Of a DNA stretch of 41,603 nt, positions 23,987 to 33,792 are shown in pieces (the first letter of the stretch is position 1; each line of letters begins with the position of its first letter). Source of the stretch: Bdellovibrio sp. Lineage in GTDB: Bacteria > Bdellovibrionota > Bdellovibrionia > Bdellovibrionales > Bdellovibrionaceae. Position numbers and translations under genes: made by a program. Under the pieces are notes generated by a model, which was not told the DNA's origin, did not search any database, and saw nothing but the letters and a program-made list of their open reading frames with translations. The stretch lies in NCBI GenBank assembly GCA_020720425.1, contig DYOP01000015.1, positions 1 to 41,603 of the forward strand, in the 5' to 3' direction.

Positions 23987-24835
23987 TTAACCACCAAACG
24001 TCTTATTCAAGAGGCCAAGTGCAGAATTTGCGGACTGATTCGCCTGAGCAAGCACAGATATTCCAGCCTGCATTAATATATTATTTCGGGTCATTTCAGA
24101 AGTTTCTTCGGCAACATCAACATCACGAATTCGTGAGTTTGCAGCTGATAAGTTTTCTACTGAGTTTTGAATATTTGAAACAGTTGTAGCAAGTCGGTTT
24201 TGCAAAGCTCCAAAGTCGGCTCTCATCGCAGAAACGCTCATAATGGCGTTATCTACAGCTGTAAGCGAATTTTGTGCCGAGGCCTTATCAGCCACTGACG
24301 TTAAGTTTACACCTAACGAAGCCGAACTTGCGTCTGCTTTTGAAGAGTCAAATGATATTCTATCAATTTCTGGATTATTTCTAATTCCAACTTGAAAATC
24401 CATAATTGAACCGACACCTGCAAGTAACTGGGTTCCATTAAACTCAGTTGCTGAGGCAATGCGGTCAACTTCATTAACAAGCTGATCATATTCAACATTT
24501 AAAAACTGTCTTTCGACGGGACCAATCGTATCAGAAGCGGATTGAACAGAAAGCTCTCTTAATCTAATTAAGATCGAACTTATTTCGTTCATGGCACCTT
24601 CTGCCACTTGCACTAACGAAATTCCGTCGTTACCATTTCTTACGGATTGTTTAAGCCCTCGAATTTGAGCTCTTAGGTTTTCGGAAATAGCTAATCCCGC
24701 AGCATCATCGCCAGCACGATTAATCCGGTAACCCGAAGCAAGTCTTTCCATGCTCTTATCTAGATTCATCTTCGTGCCCCACAGAACCCTCTGTGCGTTT
24801 AGCGACGAAGTATTGGTGTTAATACGTAACCCCAT
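23987..24835 (-). CDS. fliC: Flagellin
   Basis: The filament protein of the flagellum, 282 residues. The conserved N-terminal D0/D1 region starts MGLRINTNTSSLNAQR and includes LASGYRINRAGDDAAGLAIS. The conserved C-terminal part includes NILMQAGISVLAQANQSA. The central variable region is very short, as in other compact flagellins. The usual C-terminal LLR end is replaced by LLNKTFGG. ATG 24835 is certain: a perfect AAGGAGG lies 6 bases upstream, while the longer frame to 24883 reads through this site. Three hairpins sit in the leader. No other flagellar genes are in the window, which fits genomes with several dispersed flagellin copies. The symbol is used for the family; the paralogue number is unknown. 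Confidence 0.96.
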   Translation of the reverse strand: MGLRINTNTSSLNAQRVLWGTKMNLDKSMERLASGYRINRAGDDAAGLAISENLRAQIRGLKQSVRNGNDGISLVQVAEGAMNEISSILIRLRELSVQSASDTIGPVERQFLNVEYDQLVNEVDRIASATEFNGTQLLAGVGSIMDFQVGIRNNPEIDRISFDSSKADASSASLGVNLTSVADKASAQNSLTAVDNAIMSVSAMRADFGALQNRLATTVSNIQNSVENLSAANSRIRDVDVAEETSEMTRNNILMQAGISVLAQANQSANSALGLLNKTFGG

Positions 24836-24858
24836 AACGTCCTCCTTCCTTGAGAATT

Positions 24859-24905
24859 CGGCAAGATGCCGATGAGCCTTCATGGCTCTAAGGGAATTTC
24901 CCTTA
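24859..24905 (-). promoter_or_regulatory. Three consecutive hairpins in the flagellin leader
   Basis: Directly upstream of the flagellin ribosome binding site lie three small perfect stem-loops, end to end: 24859-24871 (CGGCA/TGCCG, 3-base loop), 24874-24888 (GAGCC/GGCTC, 5-base loop) and 24889-24905 (TAAGGGA/TCCCTTA, 3-base loop). Such an array could stabilise the messenger or control translation. I found no convincing sigma-28 promoter (TAAAG with GCCGATAA); CCGATC at 24911-24918 on the minus strand is only a partial match. Confidence 0.6.
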
Positions 24906-27389: not shown

Positions 27390-27402
27390 TTGGATTCAAT
27401 AC

Positions 27403-27434
27403 AAAAAACTCTAATGTTAATCTTAGAGTTTTTT
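27403..27434. terminator. Strong bidirectional rho-independent terminator
   Basis: A perfect 12-bp stem, AAAAAACTCTAA (27403-27414) with TTAGAGTTTTTT (27423-27434), closes an 8-base loop. Because A and T runs flank the stem symmetrically it can work in both directions. It lies just downstream of the last gene of the minus-strand pseudopilin cluster. Confidence 0.8.
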
Positions 27435-27473
27435 AAACTTAAATTTTATGATCCTAGGTAAAGATTTATCATC

Positions 27474-28412
27474 TTAAAAGGCAAATTCGAGCTGATTGAC
27501 TTTCATGTATTGATAAGTGGCAAGCCCTGCAAGTACGGCAATTAAAAATCGATTACGTTTTAAAAAACTGGGTTTACTAGCTGCTGTATCAAATGATGTA
27601 TGCGTTAATGCATTTTCTGACCAGCTGTCTTTGGTAACAGATAAGTCTTCCCATAAAATAAATCTTTGTGTTTGTTTAATTAGCATAAATGAGTTCCATC
27701 TAAAATCGTTGGCTGAGCCTCTGATCCAATTTAAGTGCGATTTGATTTGAGTCACATTATTTAAAAATTCATTAAAGGTTCCAGAAAAAATATAAGGAGC
27801 CCAAAGGCTCGAAACCAGAGTCCACTCATAGGTTTTGTTAAAATCAACATTTGTAAATTCTGTTACCTTTTGCCCATTTATAAACAAAACAAAATCCTCT
27901 CCGCCTTTTTGACCTTTTATCCAGCTTATCATATGGCTTAGTTTTAAGTATTGCTCCTCAAGCTCCTTATCTCCATCAAGTTGAATTGTTTCTAATTGAG
28001 TGTTCATGGTTTTAATCCATTTTACATCATTTGTTGGCGTCATCTCACTTATGCGTTTAAGCAATAGGTTTTGAAACCTTTTGGTAGCTGGAGTTTTTTT
28101 AAGTTCAAGTGTTTTAATATAAAATGCTTTTAACTGTCGGTATTGCTCAGATTCAGATTTATAATTTGAGGTTAATATAGCTTCAAGTTTAAGTTCATAA
28201 TTTTCGGGTATAAAATCGGTTTGGAGTTTTTGTTCTATCCATTTTTGAGGGGTTATAAATTGAGAATGGCTTTTTAAGAAAGCATAATATTCGACAAGAT
28301 TTGTTTCGGGAGCTCTAAAAAGTACGTGTTCATTAGCTTCCGAAGGGGGGAGGGCATAGGCCAAAGCATTTAGACCGCTTAATTGTAGTAACAATAAAAA
28401 TACAGCTTTCAT
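27474..28412 (-). CDS. Secreted or membrane-anchored protein of unknown function in the pseudopilin cluster
   Basis: I do not recognise this 312-residue protein. An N-terminal signal peptide (MKAVFLLLLQLSGLNALAYA) is followed by a mostly helical, charged region, a Trp-rich part (about 190-260, with TYEWTLVSSLWAPYIFSG and NWIRGSANDFRWNSF), and a hydrophobic stretch near the C-terminus (FLIAVLAGLATYQYM), so it may be a periplasmic protein anchored by a C-terminal helix. It is the last gene of the cluster; its ATG overlaps the stop of the CpaB-like gene by 4 bp, so it is probably co-translated and belongs to the same machine. A strong terminator follows. Confidence 0.7.
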   Translation of the reverse strand: MKAVFLLLLQLSGLNALAYALPPSEANEHVLFRAPETNLVEYYAFLKSHSQFITPQKWIEQKLQTDFIPENYELKLEAILTSNYKSESEQYRQLKAFYIKTLELKKTPATKRFQNLLLKRISEMTPTNDVKWIKTMNTQLETIQLDGDKELEEQYLKLSHMISWIKGQKGGEDFVLFINGQKVTEFTNVDFNKTYEWTLVSSLWAPYIFSGTFNEFLNNVTQIKSHLNWIRGSANDFRWNSFMLIKQTQRFILWEDLSVTKDSWSENALTHTSFDTAASKPSFLKRNRFLIAVLAGLATYQYMKVNQLEFAF

Positions 28413-28951
28413 AAGGCGCTCCCTTGAATTTTTTCAATTTTCGATTTTAATTTAAATACTTTTTTTTGATTTTTATTAAGTCTTACTTTTTTGCTTTTAA
28501 GGACGGCAAAAACAGGCTGCGAAAGCATTTCGATGTGCTTATTTTGCCCTTCTTCAATCAGCGCCGAAAAGTATGACAAATCAGGTGCGTTTCTAATAAT
28601 TTTTATATTTTTTAAAGCTAATTGCCTTTTGCCATTAAGTGTTTGAGACGATGAATATAAATCGGCTCGTGCCGCCCTTTCGACAAGATTACTAATCGAG
28701 TCAATATTTTCGATTTCCAAAGGAATTAAGACATAGCCCTCCGGAATATACCCAGACAAATACTCTTGGCTTTGTTCTTGGTTTTGACCATGATTTAGAT
28801 TTTCAGAAGCCACGGGGTTGCTTTGCTTAGTTTTATTATTAAATAGAGGTGCAACTATAATAATTAAACTGACCACAAGGGTAACGATAATTGTTAGCCT
28901 TGCATTTTTATCTTCTAGATATTTTTTAAATCCGATTATTAATTCACTCAT
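28409..28951 (-). CDS. Single-pass membrane protein, possibly CpaB/RcpC-like
   Basis: A 180-residue protein with one membrane helix (about 20-38, LTIIVTLVVSLIIIVAPLF), a short Gln/Asn-rich linker and a soluble domain starting GYIPEGYVLIPLEIEN and ending FAVLKSKKVRLN. The phrase recalls the SAF/CpaB region of Flp pilus assembly proteins, a family that sits in the periplasm near the secretin, but the match is weak. I chose ATG 28951 (MSELIIGF): it overlaps the preceding stop as ATGAGTGA, a typical coupling. An open frame continues to 29011 but has no ribosome binding site. The cluster context (prepilins upstream) supports a role in a Tad-like system. Confidence 0.55.
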   Translation of the reverse strand: MSELIIGFKKYLEDKNARLTIIVTLVVSLIIIVAPLFNNKTKQSNPVASENLNHGQNQEQSQEYLSGYIPEGYVLIPLEIENIDSISNLVERAARADLYSSSQTLNGKRQLALKNIKIIRNAPDLSYFSALIEEGQNKHIEMLSQPVFAVLKSKKVRLNKNQKKVFKLKSKIEKIQGSAL

Positions 28952-29207
28952 AAATATTTTCTTGAATAGGTTTTTTATTTGTTTTGAGGGCATTTTTAAC
29001 TCCCTGCTCAAAGCTTGTGATAAATATGAGCAGCACTAAAAAAAATAAAATGAGTTCGATAAAGATTTGTCCGCGCTGAGCAATGGTTTTATTATACTTT
29101 CTGCTGCTAATGAGCTTTCTGAAGCTTTTATGAGCGTTGCTGAGCAGCCATTCATAATCGACAAATGATCGTTTTTTAGATTTGATGAGCCATTGGGACT
29201 TATCCAT
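28944..29207 (-). CDS. TadE-like pseudopilin with a 46-residue leader
   Basis: An 87-residue protein with a class of prepilin signal: a long basic leader, then RG|QIFIELILFFLVLLIFI with Gly at -1 and Glu at +5, followed by a short soluble tail. Prepilin peptidase should cut after the Gly and the mature protein would be a small TadE-like membrane pseudopilin. The ATG at 29207 has GGAGG seven bases upstream, which supports this start, although it lies 172 bp inside the preceding gene. It overlaps the next gene by 8 bp. The leader is longer than usual. Confidence 0.7.
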   Translation of the reverse strand: MDKSQWLIKSKKRSFVDYEWLLSNAHKSFRKLISSRKYNKTIAQRGQIFIELILFFLVLLIFITSFEQGVKNALKTNKKPIQENIYE

Positions 29208-29968
29208 TTTTTAACCTCCGCAGTTTGACGAGCTTGAACCTTCCATTCGAGGGCTACTTTTTGAGATTGTTCAATATTGGGGCTAAGTTCGTATTGCCTA
29301 AAAAACTGACCTGGGTTTGATATCCGGACGGGGTGAGTAAAGCTCATGCTTTTTGGTCGAATCCACTGAATATTGTATGAATTAACAAGGTTATTACTTT
29401 TGTTTATCGCCTTTTTAATATGGTTAATTGATTTAACTATTCCTCCCGTTTTAATCATCAATATTTGAGCCAGTAAAGCTGTCTGCTTGGCCTTTAAAGC
29501 CCTTCCAAGAGTTTGGGTTATGTCGTTCAAAACTTTACCATATCCATAGGTCGAAGGAGTTAACATAAGGGTTTTGGCTACTAGATTTGCTTGTTGTAGC
29601 CTTTTCATGGGTTGGTTTAACTGTAATAGGCTTTGAGTTTGATCGGCTACTGAACTTTGAATTTTTAAAAGACCAATTCGGCAATGATTTCTTGAGGATT
29701 TATTAATTTTAATGTGCCCCATTTGACCCATAAATAAATAATAGGATAGGGCAAACAGAGGAAGTAAAATAAGTAACCCAATAAGTGCTGATCCATTTTG
29801 CGAATCAAGGCGGTTTTTAAGCTGGCGTGGATGTTGATGATAAGGCCGAGATAAGCTGAAATTGAACTTATGAGAGAGATAGAGATAAGGATAAAAGTAA
29901 AAATAATTAGCGCGAGAGTGAGCTTGCGAGCGATTAGGGTAGGCAGAGCTAAGTTTGTGGTGACACAT
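29036..29968 (-). CDS. TadE/TadG-like pseudopilin, possibly extended by a frameshift
   Basis: This protein of about 310 residues has a long, Tyr/His-rich leader, then NG|SALIGLLILLPLFALSYYLF, a prepilin-like cleavage site followed by a membrane helix; the +5 Glu is replaced by Gly. The rest is a soluble, helical domain. I start it at ATG 29968 with AGGAT about 9 bases upstream; a TTG at 30007 would extend it into the gene before. The last 172 bp overlap the next gene in another frame. A one-base shift in the A-run just before 29205 would end the frame at a TAA a few bases later, so the tail (about 57 residues) may not be original. Confidence 0.6.
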   Translation of the reverse strand: MCHHKLSSAYPNRSQAHSRANYFYFYPYLYLSHKFNFSLSRPYHQHPRQLKNRLDSQNGSALIGLLILLPLFALSYYLFMGQMGHIKINKSSRNHCRIGLLKIQSSVADQTQSLLQLNQPMKRLQQANLVAKTLMLTPSTYGYGKVLNDITQTLGRALKAKQTALLAQILMIKTGGIVKSINHIKKAINKSNNLVNSYNIQWIRPKSMSFTHPVRISNPGQFFRQYELSPNIEQSQKVALEWKVQARQTAEVKKWISPNGSSNLKNDHLSIMNGCSATLIKASESSLAAESIIKPLLSADKSLSNSFYFF

Positions 29969-29996
29969 AAATATATATCCTATTTTGACAAATATT

Positions 29997-30416
29997 TTAT
30001 TTAACAAATGGGAGTTGAGAGTTAACCGTCCATTTTAAATTTATGCCGTTTGATCGAAATGAATTTTCAAAGGGGTCTAATTTAATTAAAAAATCAATTC
30101 GGGGAGAGCTATGATGGGAGATCTGAATTTGAAAGTTTTTAAGTCCTACGTTTTTAAAAATAGAACCTATTTTAAATCGAAAAGCGTTATTGCATTGGGC
30201 TTTTGAGTAAGTAGATTGATAACAGGCCGCGAGTTCATCACTAAAATAATAAGAGTGGTTATAGGCTAAATATAAAGGGATGGTCTTAATAACAAGTATA
30301 ACCAATAAAGTAATAACCGTAAGCCCTAAAGTTGTTTCAATAACGCTAGCCCCTTTTTGAGAGCTTAAGGGGGCTAGCGTTTTAAAATTAAAAATGTGGC
30401 TTGTATTAGTTATCAT
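29997..30416 (-). CDS. TadE-like pseudopilin
   Basis: A 139-residue protein with a leader ending QKG|ASVIETTLGLTVITLLVILV: Gly at -1, Glu at +5 and a hydrophobic helix, the standard signal for type IV prepilin-like proteins of the TadE class. The soluble part has two Cys residues (ACYQSTYSKAQC) that could form a disulfide. The ATG overlaps the stop of the Flp prepilin gene by 11 bp, so translation is probably coupled. It should be a minor pilin or a component that starts assembly, by family knowledge. Confidence 0.75.
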   Translation of the reverse strand: MITNTSHIFNFKTLAPLSSQKGASVIETTLGLTVITLLVILVIKTIPLYLAYNHSYYFSDELAACYQSTYSKAQCNNAFRFKIGSIFKNVGLKNFQIQISHHSSPRIDFLIKLDPFENSFRSNGINLKWTVNSQLPFVK

Positions 30417-30705
30417 TAAAAAGTGTATTAATATCTTTTTTTTCGGTTAAACCTTGTTCTGCCCGAGGGGCCCTGATTCCAGAAGTGTTAGAGCCTATAC
30501 TGTTGGCAATCTGAGCAAATTTATAACGGATACTTTGTCCAACAAATTGCATCACTGTAATTCCGGCAATGGCAACAAAGCTAACAATCAGTAAATATTC
30601 AATTAACCCCTGACCTTTTTGATTTAATTTATTGCTATTAATTGGCATTGGGTGATTGGCTTTTGGGAGAAGTGCTTTGAATGGTCGGTTTGTTTTTGCG
30701 TTCAT
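30406..30705 (-). CDS. Flp-type prepilin
   Basis: The first gene of the cluster encodes a 99-residue Flp/Fap pilin precursor. The cleavage site NQKG|QGLIEYLLIVSFVAIAG has Gly at -1, Glu at +5 and Tyr at +6, the hallmark of Flp pilins. The mature part is about 60 residues, mostly one helix plus a short hydrophilic tail. ATG 30705 follows AAGGAGG at a spacing of about 8 bases; the longer frame to 30747 reads through this site. No TadA, TadB/C, CpaC or prepilin peptidase gene is within the window, so the motor must be elsewhere. Confidence 0.85.
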   Translation of the reverse strand: MNAKTNRPFKALLPKANHPMPINSNKLNQKGQGLIEYLLIVSFVAIAGITVMQFVGQSIRYKFAQIANSIGSNTSGIRAPRAEQGLTEKKDINTLFNDN

Positions 30706-30974: not shown

Positions 30975-31196
30975 ATGGCTGAAAAAGTAAAACTATCAAA
31001 AGATGGCAGTTCAATTGATTTTGTTCAGTCTGATAGCATACCCTCTTCGGTTAAAAAATTTAGACAGGGGCCTGAGATTGAAGGATTTTATCGTTTTGTT
31101 TATGAAAATGACCTACAAAAAGAAGCCTTAGTTATTTTAGAAAAAATTATTTTGGCCCGTAAAGAAAAGAAAAAATCTGTTCTTGTAAAAAAATAA
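30975..31196 (+). CDS. Small conserved-looking protein of unknown function
   Basis: A 73-residue soluble protein that I do not recognise. It starts with a short Lys/Ser-rich segment, has a likely amphipathic helix in the middle (IEGFYRFVYENDLQKEALVILEKI is helical in pattern), and ends with a basic tail (ARKEKKKSVLVKK). AAGGGG lies before ATG 30975. It stands alone between a divergent pilin cluster and a secreted protein gene. The coding call rests on the ribosome binding site, the promoter-like upstream pair and a balanced composition. Confidence 0.65.
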   Translation: MAEKVKLSKDGSSIDFVQSDSIPSSVKKFRQGPEIEGFYRFVYENDLQKEALVILEKIILARKEKKKSVLVKK

Positions 31197-31872: not shown

Positions 31873-31974
31873 GCTCTGCGTGAAGTTGCTGACATGACAA
31901 TAATTTGAGTCTCGCTCTATTGTTAGAGTACCTTAAAATAAGATTTTTGGATTAACTTTTCTTTGGAGGTGCGT

Positions 31975-32910
31975 ATGGCTTTTGATGTGAGCAAATCAAG
32001 CTTTCTAAAATGGTCAGAACTAGAAAATTCAGGATTAATTAATTCAGAAATAATCAATTCAGAGTTAAATTTAAATAATTTAAAAAGCTTATCTCCTAGG
32101 TCTGTTGTTACCCCAGATATGGCCAGAAAACTCCTGATCCAATCGGGAGTGATTTTAAAGCCTAAAACAATTTCGTTTCAAATGCTCAAGGGAGGCGTTG
32201 CAAAAACAAGCTCGGCCCTTTCGATTGCCATCAGAGCAAGCCACTATGGTTACCGTGTTTTATTAGTTGATTTAGATCAACAGGCTAATTTGTCTTATGC
32301 TTTAGGTGAGTTAAAAGAATCTTCATATGTTTGGCTTGATATTGCCGAAAAAAAAATCAATATCACTGAGGCTATCGTATCGGTGATGCCAAATTTAGAT
32401 TTGATTCCTTCAAATTTAAATAATTCTGTTTTAGAAAAGGTTTTAATTCGATCTCATCGTAATTGGATGATGAGCGTAAAAGGCCCGCTCGAAGAGATTA
32501 AAAATAATTATGATTGGATAATCATAGACACTGCCCCCAGTTTAACTGTTGTTAATTCGGCTGTTACTTGCGCCAGCCAATGTGTCGTGCTGCCGGTTAC
32601 TCCCGATCCATTTGCCATTATGGGTTTATCAAAGCATTTAGAAGAGTTAAAAGAAATTGAATCAGATTTTGATCTTAAAGGGCTTGATAAAAAGATTTTA
32701 TTTACACGGTTTGATGCTCGTGAAAGCTTAAGCCAAAAGTATTTATTTGAATGCGCCGAAAAGTATCCGGATTTCATGCTAGACAGTTATATTCGTAACA
32801 CAGCTGAAATAAAAAAGTCGGTTCAAGAAAAGCGCGATATTTTTAAAACATCAACCACGGCCAAGCTTGATTATGATTTAGTAACTCGCGAACTAATGAG
32901 TTTACAATAA
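31975..32910 (+). CDS. ParA-family ATPase
   Basis: A 311-residue ATPase of the ParA/MinD group, which uses nonspecific DNA binding or the membrane to position plasmids, chromosomes or protein clusters. The deviant Walker A is KGGVAKTS (72-79), the Walker A' region is LLVDLDQQANLS, and Walker B is DWIIIDTAPS. An N-terminal extension of about 65 residues precedes it and contains a possible helix-turn-helix (TPDMARKLLIQSGV). I chose ATG 31975, 4 bases after GGAGGT. No ParB with a typical HTH is adjacent; instead a low-complexity acidic protein gene follows after 45 bp. This suggests positioning of a cargo other than a plasmid, but that is inference. Confidence 0.88.
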   Translation: MAFDVSKSSFLKWSELENSGLINSEIINSELNLNNLKSLSPRSVVTPDMARKLLIQSGVILKPKTISFQMLKGGVAKTSSALSIAIRASHYGYRVLLVDLDQQANLSYALGELKESSYVWLDIAEKKINITEAIVSVMPNLDLIPSNLNNSVLEKVLIRSHRNWMMSVKGPLEEIKNNYDWIIIDTAPSLTVVNSAVTCASQCVVLPVTPDPFAIMGLSKHLEELKEIESDFDLKGLDKKILFTRFDARESLSQKYLFECAEKYPDFMLDSYIRNTAEIKKSVQEKRDIFKTSTTAKLDYDLVTRELMSLQ

Positions 32911-32955
32911 GTACTTATTTAACAAATGAGTTTAACCTGAGGGAGAATATACGTT

Positions 32956-33792
32956 ATGCCAAGTTTTAAAGACAAAAATTCAAAAAGGGATTTTGCGGCG
33001 ACTCAAGCTAAAAAAAGACGACCCACCGAGGATTTGAAAAAGAATAATGATAAAGAATCTTCGTATGGCAGAGAGAGAGATAAAGAAACTGTGCCTAATC
33101 AAACTATGCACAAAGAACATATGCACAAGGATACTATGCATGAAGAAGTTATGCATAAAGAAACTGAGATTAAGGTTGTTCATGTCGATTCAAATTTAAA
33201 TGATAATGAGGCGGGTTTTCGAAATCAAAGAGAGGAAGTGCTTAGTTCAGATGGTTTAAATGAGAAATCTTTGGGGTTGAAAAATAATAAAAATAGTTTT
33301 GATCAGGTCAATGCTTTTGATGAGGAGCCTGATATGAGTCATGAAATCAATGCGGAGGCTAATACTAATACTCATACTGATGCCGATAGTGATAGTGGGT
33401 TTGAGATGGGTCGTGATGCGAAGCCTGAGACGGAAACTGACACCGAGACCGAGACTGATGCAGAGACTGATAATAGCTTTGAAGAAACCGAGAAAGAAGA
33501 AAAAATTGAAATTCACTTTCCGGGTGATCATGTTTTGCGGAAGGTGATACCATCTGTATTTGATCTTAGTGAGGCCGTTTTGACAGATTGGATGCAGGAT
33601 AAAAATTTTGAATCGTTACCTATTCAAAATCCATTTGTTAGATTTGCCGCTAAAAAAGGTTTACGTCAGGCTAAGACTATCGAAAAAAAGGTGCTTGAGC
33701 ACCCGGTTACCGAAAAAGTGGTTACTAAGCTTTTTGAGGCGGGTATAAAGGCCCAAACGATTGTTGATAATATTAAAAGTAAAACCAAATAG
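32956..33792 (+). CDS. Low-complexity partner of ParA with Met/His and Glu/Thr/Asp repeats
   Basis: A 278-residue soluble protein that I do not recognise. The basic N-terminus (about 1-50, with KKRRPTEDLKK) is followed by a stretch with MHKE/MHKD units (about 52-70), a long acidic segment with TETDTETETDAETD (about 150-175), and an ordered-looking C-terminal part of about 100 residues (from IHFPGDHVLRKVIP on) that includes predicted helices. GAGGGAGA lies before the ATG. Its position after parA and the disordered, charged middle part fit a cargo adaptor or ParB-like partner, but no known DNA-binding motif is visible. The Met/His units could bind a metal. Confidence 0.65.
   Translation: MPSFKDKNSKRDFAATQAKKRRPTEDLKKNNDKESSYGRERDKETVPNQTMHKEHMHKDTMHEEVMHKETEIKVVHVDSNLNDNEAGFRNQREEVLSSDGLNEKSLGLKNNKNSFDQVNAFDEEPDMSHEINAEANTNTHTDADSDSGFEMGRDAKPETETDTETETDAETDNSFEETEKEEKIEIHFPGDHVLRKVIPSVFDLSEAVLTDWMQDKNFESLPIQNPFVRFAAKKGLRQAKTIEKKVLEHPVTEKVVTKLFEAGIKAQTIVDNIKSKTK

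Follow-up and report, generated by a model that had tools for sequence, protein, structure and literature searches.

Tad pili matter for prey invasion by Bdellovibrio. The Tad cluster of B. bacteriovorus HD100 (Tad-1) spans bd0109-bd0119, and one study found that attachment required TadC (Bd0470) (PMC6561027). Another pilin gene, flp3 (bd3297), is reported as unresponsive to FliA in E. coli and called 'non-TAD associated' in the available portion of a second study, which also gives TadV as missing from Bdellovibrio (PMC5430801). Elsewhere, the Kil Tips of Myxococcus xanthus are described, in the part of the source at hand, as minor-pilin trios in distinct clusters, one of them with an Flp adapter (PMC12075869). 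Here we describe a cassette of six overlapping or nearly overlapping minus-strand genes (27474-30705) in DNA from Bdellovibrio sp. The window, i.e. the whole stretch of 41,603 nucleotides that was analysed (contig DYOP01000015.1), is an entire contig, C18, of its own genome (2.6 Mb, 203 contigs, 99.4% complete).

The cassette is probably one half of a second Tad-type system in the Bdellovibrionales, the half encoding pilin, tip and envelope parts; the system is termed here the flp3 system. This system is likely to have a pilin, tip, secretin and ATPase of its own and to lack its own platform (TadB/TadC) and peptidase. The pilin of this probable, divided second system was already known, as an orphan. 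All six open reading frames (ORFs) listed in an earlier note on this DNA are present. Their order from 5' to 3' is Flp, TadE-like, TadG-like, short TadE-like, one-helix protein and C-terminally anchored protein, and the features are as follows.

30406-30705, minus strand: Flp prepilin (flp3 type) with a C-terminal tail, family consensus KKDxSNFMxG (Flp_Fap E 2e-5; alignment of 32)
29997-30416, minus strand: TadE-like minor prepilin with Glu+5 and two invariant Cys (alignment A7, n=32)
29036-30007 (ORF limits; mature part from ~29791), minus strand: TadG-like large minor prepilin without Glu+5 (alignment A6; AlphaFold2 model)
28944-29207, minus strand: short TadE-like prepilin with Glu+5, start uncertain, overlapping the preceding gene (alignment A8, n=24)
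28409-28951, minus strand: one-helix protein, possibly a reduced CpaB/RcpC (recognised in 66 named loci)
27474-28412, minus strand: anchored protein with signal-like helix, helical domain, beta domain and C-terminal membrane helix (AlphaFold2; profile match)
27402-27435, minus strand: terminator-like hairpin 3' of the last cassette gene (RNA fold)
30975-31196, plus strand: neighbour gene outside the system, used as a synteny marker (57/61 family genomes)

Secretin and ATPase genes linked to the cassette

The earlier note had read the six genes as a set without motor genes that might borrow a motor encoded elsewhere. For the contig itself the first claim holds: domain searches of the own genome (E ≤ 0.001) found no T2SSE, T2SSF, secretin or A24 peptidase domain on it. 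Tad motor genes are present on two other contigs of the genome, C20 and C74. On C74 the gene of an RcpA/CpaC-type secretin (secretin-2) is followed by the gene of a second CpaF-type ATPase (ATPase-2), with TadC ~18 kb away beside FHA-like proteins. The best relative of ATPase-2 among solved structures is Caulobacter CpaF (E 1.6e-46), and its best NCBIfam model is the TadA family TIGR03819, for which both it and the genome's own TadA-1 score under the cut-off. Secretin-2 matches Pfam Secretin above the cut-off (91.7 bits), and its best and second matches among solved structures are 8jvb and RcpA (8odn).

Four pilin-like proteins with only one Flp among them, plus a secretin, could also make up a short pseudopilus like that of type II secretion systems (T2SS), acting in protein secretion, sensing or envelope anchoring and not as an external pilus. 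In keeping with this, type IVa/T2SS-like pseudopilin genes (assigned by eye) lie beside secretin-2 in the own genome. We nevertheless consider a pseudopilus improbable: ATPase-2 is closest to CpaF and not to GspE, no cargo gene is evident among the six, and Flp shafts are normally polymerised outward in Tad pili. The same stretch of C74 (L020:9585-14883) also encodes an 866-residue protein and a 415-residue protein with a signal-like N-terminus.

Secretin-2 has orthologs in 58 of the 61 family genomes, a partial match in G074 (52 bits) being excluded, and in 58/58 ATPase-2 follows directly on the same strand within 27-608 bases. Two genomes (G072 and G074) have the cassette Flp without a usable secretin-2 and three (G013, G070 and G076) have secretin-2 without the Flp. 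Both are present in 55 genomes, on one contig in 40 of these, and in all 40 secretin-2 is downstream of the Flp in the same orientation, at 6.7-14.9 kb (median 7.5 kb). Because of this constant placement the motor seems to be the system's own. The idea of a borrowed motor in the earlier note is partly right: the motor is unlinked in the window's genome, and what may be borrowed are the platform and the peptidase. In five genomes (G016, G071, G075, G079 and G080) the cassette is away from its usual neighbour, yet secretin-2 is still 7.3-7.8 kb downstream, so that the stretch from cassette to secretin moves as a unit, contents between included. Secretin-2 was likewise recognised in 29 of the 40 named loci with at least 9 kb of downstream sequence, and together with ATPase-2 downstream of the cassette in 8 of ten loci from other families of the order or class. 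In ten loci from other classes neither was found downstream within the fetched stretch, which was short in two; two other-class loci gave weak secretin or ATPase hits (15-20 bits). The reading of the six genes as an orphan cassette was rejected, since the secretin/ATPase pair is linked to them in most relatives examined.

The behaviour of the rearranged genomes also bears on an interchangeable tip module of the Kil kind, in which the minor prepilins and an Flp3 adapter would cap the Tad-1 (Flp1) pilus while the secretin and ATPase serve something else. The earlier note had proposed a tip module. Three of the six genes are consistent with this, as a TadE/F/G-like trio that resembles the published Kil Tips (PMC12075869). 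Kil adapters are reported to be transcribed at a very low level, which low flp3 expression would fit (PMC12075869), and the TadB gene sits in Tad-1. However, in none of the five rearranged genomes is the secretin/ATPase pair separated from the cassette, and because the pair travels in this way we rate such a module, as unlikely, below a second machine. In addition, Flp3 has a conserved tail of its own, Tad-1 has its own minor prepilins (by eye), and HD100 without flp3 still preys according to the accessible text (PMC5430801).

Conservation of the cassette and its correspondence to flp3

A strong match to the cassette Flp is present in 57 of the 61 family genomes, including 50/50 of those that are complete and clean. 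The lowest of the 57 scores 72.9 bits, and the next best matches (27 bits) are other Flps or unrelated. The neighbour gene is found in 57/61 family genomes and lies <1 kb from the Flp in 52/57. Through it 77 named loci were fetched, of which 71 contain a recognisable Flp and six do not. With 13 of the 71 set aside for having <3 kb downstream, 47 of the remaining 58 named loci have all six genes in order, nine lack just one of them, and two have the TadE-like match placed at the slot of the short TadE-like gene. The gene order that the earlier note proposed to look for in relatives is therefore conserved. The note had also considered that a complete tad operon elsewhere, with minor pilins of its own, and a lack of conservation of this set would tell against it; a tad cluster with its own minor prepilins does occur, on C20, but the six-gene set is conserved.

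The iterated profiles used for these counts were trained partly on loci later counted. Profiles built solely from six seed loci recognised the five other genes in 56, 64, 50, 61 and 31 of 67 non-seed loci, with 21, 1, 1, 0 and 0 hits elsewhere. The alignments consist of the window's protein together with part of the named ORFs (Flp 31/71, TadE-like 31/63, TadG-like 48/68, short TadE-like 23/63, one-helix 43/66, anchored 41/56), and some fetched stretches carry runs of masked bases within ORFs, e.g. in a Tad-1 minor prepilin at L019:12835-13389.

In a sample of 290 phylum genomes ordered by kinship, where counts refer to the genomes listed and 100 without a match are unlisted, the Flp profile at E ≤ 1e-10 matched 51/51 genomes of the family, 44/45 from other families of the order and 2/2 from another order of the same class. 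Outside the class there are many weaker matches that represent ordinary Flps, although some (G107 and G100) align through the tail. Each of ten loci taken from other families of the order or class contains the six genes in recognisable form, and in ten from other classes the cassette can be recognised only in part. Several loci in this comparison are apparently the same records as named training loci (e.g. L232 and L165). One other-class locus (L244:3554-13180) keeps the gene order with a tailed Flp, then a TadE protein, then an anchored TPR-PEGA protein, and has a pair of short T2SSF (TadB/TadC-like) genes ~8.3 kb downstream of the Flp, an arrangement that may represent an older, less divided state. 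Two records, L092 ('Streptomyces griseus isolate') and L157 ('Bacteroidetes bacterium'), carry the Bdellovibrionaceae marker gene and look mislabelled in their titles; L092 additionally holds the full cassette.

The coding sequences show signs of constraint. The Flp3 protein is identical over 89 residues among the three closest loci, L169 (which is from G036), L170 and L171, at synonymous divergences (dS) of 0.13 to 0.49 (0.43-0.49 for Flp3 of G036 and two relatives), giving a ratio of nonsynonymous to synonymous divergence (dN/dS) of ~0. Among L169, L170 and L171 the ratio is 0.02-0.04 for the one-helix gene, 0.06-0.09 for the anchored gene, 0.17-0.19 for the TadG-like gene and 0.03-0.21 for the TadE-like gene. 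Synonymous sites are saturated in several pairs, and certain other pairs and genes give higher values, the short TadE-like gene reaching 0.55 in one pair. A second tad operon in decay, surviving as a relic, would account for a silent flp3, as reported in the available text (PMC5430801), for the lack of platform and peptidase genes and for the split of the system in the window's genome. It is disfavoured by the dN/dS values, above all those of the Flp, one-helix and anchored genes, and by the persistence of six ORFs in order in most named loci, and we hold it to be very improbable. With such constraint on Flp3, the silent pilin is likely to be in use in nature.

The correspondence to flp3 is positional. 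In G036, which we take from its single contig of 3,782,950 bases and its gene spacing to be B. bacteriovorus HD100, the ORF order is flp, the five other cassette genes, three others, secretin and ATPase. The cassette Flp lies nine ORF steps ahead of the secretin and ~16.5 kb ahead of a FliA-like ORF, and TadA-1 is near 0.1 Mb, consistent with bd0111. In the published numbering, as far as the accessible texts show it, flp3 is bd3297 and fliA is bd3318 (PMC5430801), and bd3306 and bd3307 are named pilQ and cpaF and lie near an RHS gene (PMC3818213). Because the positions in G036 match this spacing, the window's Flp is by position flp3 (bd3297), and the linked pair is bd3306/bd3307. G036 has a further short Flp-like ORF at 2.64 Mb, which may be flp4. 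From the same partial text, bd3307 is among the pilus genes with lower expression in host-independent strains than in attack-phase HD100, so that the ATPase gene is at least transcribed (PMC3818213). Queries with bd3297/flp3, bd3298, bd3300, bd3301, bd3302, bd3306 and bd3307, and with a second Tad system together with Bdellovibrio, found, among the open-access papers listed, none that joins flp3 with bd3306/bd3307. A search of the literature for shared or incomplete tad platforms found nothing either, which is no proof of absence.

Prepilins, envelope proteins and the assembly platform

The cleavage region of the Flp reads QKG|QGLIEY. Its match to Pfam Flp_Fap (E 2e-5) is under the curated cut-off, and 29 of the 32 aligned orthologs match this family at E ≤ 0.01. 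Within the core GQxxxEY, the G, Q, E and Y are invariant in all 32. The C-terminal tail is common to cassette Flps and was not seen in the Flp1 ORFs of two Tad-1 loci.

The three further prepilin-like signals described in the earlier note were also found (QKG|ASVIE, QNG|SALIG and QRG|QIFIE). In the TadE-like family the cleavage Gly, Glu+5 and both Cys are kept in 32/32 aligned proteins, and in the short TadE-like family the cleavage Gly and Glu+5 are kept in 24/24. Candidates for both alignments were chosen by profile match and place; given the invariance of Gly and Glu+5, the signatures are not chance. The short TadE-like profile has a remote match to a Tad-1 ORF (E 1e-6). In the TadG-like protein Glu+5 is lacking in both the window and G036, while Cys37 and Cys216 of the mature part are invariant among 49 aligned. 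Its AlphaFold2 model shows a long helical hairpin and a beta domain (pLDDT 87.7, pTM 0.83). For both the TadG-like and the short TadE-like ORF the true start is uncertain. No cassette protein of the window or G036 matched Pfam TadE/Tad, while in the genome of another class the protein in the corresponding slot matches PF07811 (TadE) above the cut-off.

The one-helix protein had been called CpaB-like. It has one transmembrane helix and is CpaB-like by position; a likeness to RcpC/CpaB is no more than hinted at. No RcpC match was found in 44 family members (Pfam, E ≤ 0.1), and hhalign gave the family profile a probability of <1% against the own CpaB and 15 Tad-1 CpaB proteins, which were drawn from 30 Tad-1 loci, the remainder having no ORF under the length and place rule. 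The hint comes from sub-threshold RcpC hits across the 61 genomes, 2/19 of which (E 0.21 and 0.27, in G023 and G016) fall inside the one-helix ORF of the cassette, above chance expectation.

For the sixth protein the C-terminal anchor that the earlier note had thought possible appears as a helix in the AlphaFold2 model, following an N-terminal signal-like helix, a helical domain and a beta domain (pLDDT 82, pTM 0.65). Over its second half the family profile matches a TPR-PEGA protein in the same slot of another class (probability 95.3, E 2.3e-8), and the TPR and PEGA domains of that protein are above their cut-offs. The anchored protein may thus be a diverged PEGA-type protein, perhaps with a TPR-like helical part. 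Other comparisons gave little: the five non-Flp proteins of the window had only weak Pfam hits (E 0.045-0.25) and none in NCBIfam or PHROGs at E ≤ 0.01, Pfam scans of 42 anchored and 49 TadG-like family members found no common family, and Foldseek found no match for either protein in the PDB at E ≤ 0.001. A VIA list for the anchored protein reached middling Z scores over the helical part (best 7.7), which were not taken as meaningful.

The strong terminator that had been noted at the end of the set is a 13-bp hairpin (27402-27435) with six U ending the 3' arm and a folding energy of -15 kcal/mol (z -4.3, equalled by 0/200 shuffles). It is absent from the list of a consensus terminator scanner, presumably since it has only two G-C pairs, and a consensus promoter scan of the window was at chance level. 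A flagellin gene (23987-24883) lies 2.6 kb past the cassette end. On the other side (31963-33792) are a gene for a ParA-like ATPase (AAA_31, E 3e-37) and then one for a 278-residue protein that has no match in Pfam; in L029, too, relatives of both lie close to the cassette.

The Tad-1 cluster of the own genome, on C20, comprises Flp1, a trimmed Flp2, minor prepilins, CpaB, a secretin, a MinD-like-TadA fusion and TadB, some identified by eye. Labels assigned by eye, here and elsewhere, are amidohydrolase, response regulator, FHA-like, trimmed Flp2 and type IVa-like pseudopilin. The six T2SSF domain matches of this genome belong to two double-domain proteins, the TadB on C20 and the TadC on C74, and there is one A24 prepilin peptidase, on contig C146. 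None of the 71 named cassette loci contains a TadB/TadC match over 40 bits. Single-copy TadB and TadC are established for the window's genome only. Platform and peptidase are presumably shared with Tad-1; this conclusion is drawn from absence and is the weakest step. That the flp3 system works like a Tad system is, from its sequences, better supported than that it is a complete one, because it lacks a platform and peptidase of its own.

In the proposed flp3 system, the three minor prepilins would form a TadE/F/G-like tip trimer with the member lacking Glu+5 at its apex, by analogy with GspK of type II secretion systems, and Flp3 would serve as shaft or adapter. The inner-membrane machine may be connected to the secretin or the cell wall by the one-helix protein and the PEGA-like anchored one. 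ATPase-2 would drive assembly, using the same TadB/TadC platform as the attack-phase Tad-1 pilus, and the single A24 peptidase would process all prepilins. More tentatively, predatory Bdellovibrionales could have two Tad machines, each with a pilin, tip, secretin and ATPase of its own, that are assembled in turn on one TadB/TadC platform, the flp3 machine for another condition (e.g. other prey, prey exit or a surface).

Several observations weigh against a second, divided system. The Flp and secretin-2 are on different contigs in 15 of 55 genomes, at least five of which (G008, G009, G014, G028 and G063) have <5 kb of contig after the Flp, and the window's genome is split despite 27 kb of contig beyond the cassette. 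Secretin-2 is missing from 11 of the 40 named loci with sufficient downstream sequence, and three genes without a known pilus role lie between cassette and secretin in G036. Each half is close to universal within the family, which makes a comparison of co-loss uninformative. T2SSF matches vary in the other family genomes (3-9 among the matches listed, in genomes with any). Finally, flp3 was silent at all tested times and dispensable for predation in the laboratory, according to the part of the study available (PMC5430801).

Comparison with known systems

If one platform serves two machines, the phenotypes of tadB/tadC mutants are not assignable to the Flp1 pilus alone. In the proposed reading, the silent orphan flp3 and bd3306/bd3307 become one testable system found across the order. 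The cassette Flp and bd3297 are the same gene by position. In the accessible text flp3 is not TAD-associated (PMC5430801), whereas in the genomes studied here it is the first gene of a conserved set, and a secretin and an ATPase are nearby.

The flp3 system shares with Tad-1 an Flp, minor prepilins, a secretin and a TadA-type ATPase. It differs in that the CpaB of Tad-1 carries SAF and RcpC domains, its TadA is MinD-like in the N-terminal part and TadB belongs to the cluster, whereas the flp3 set includes an anchored protein of PEGA-like type and lacks TadB/TadC. Compared with Caulobacter, CpaF is the best relative of ATPase-2, and an RcpA-type secretin is second for secretin-2. However, the pair in the flp3 system is apart from the pilin genes, and no CpaG/CpaH-type TadB/TadC gene exceeded 40 bits at the cassette loci; CpaE was not searched for. 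The Kil Tips of M. xanthus are alike by description, being minor-prepilin trios with one larger member, once with an Flp adapter, encoded apart from the other machine loci. The difference is that, in the part of that report available, no secretin and ATPase of their own are reported for the Tips (PMC12075869), whereas the flp3 cassette is accompanied by both in most relatives examined.

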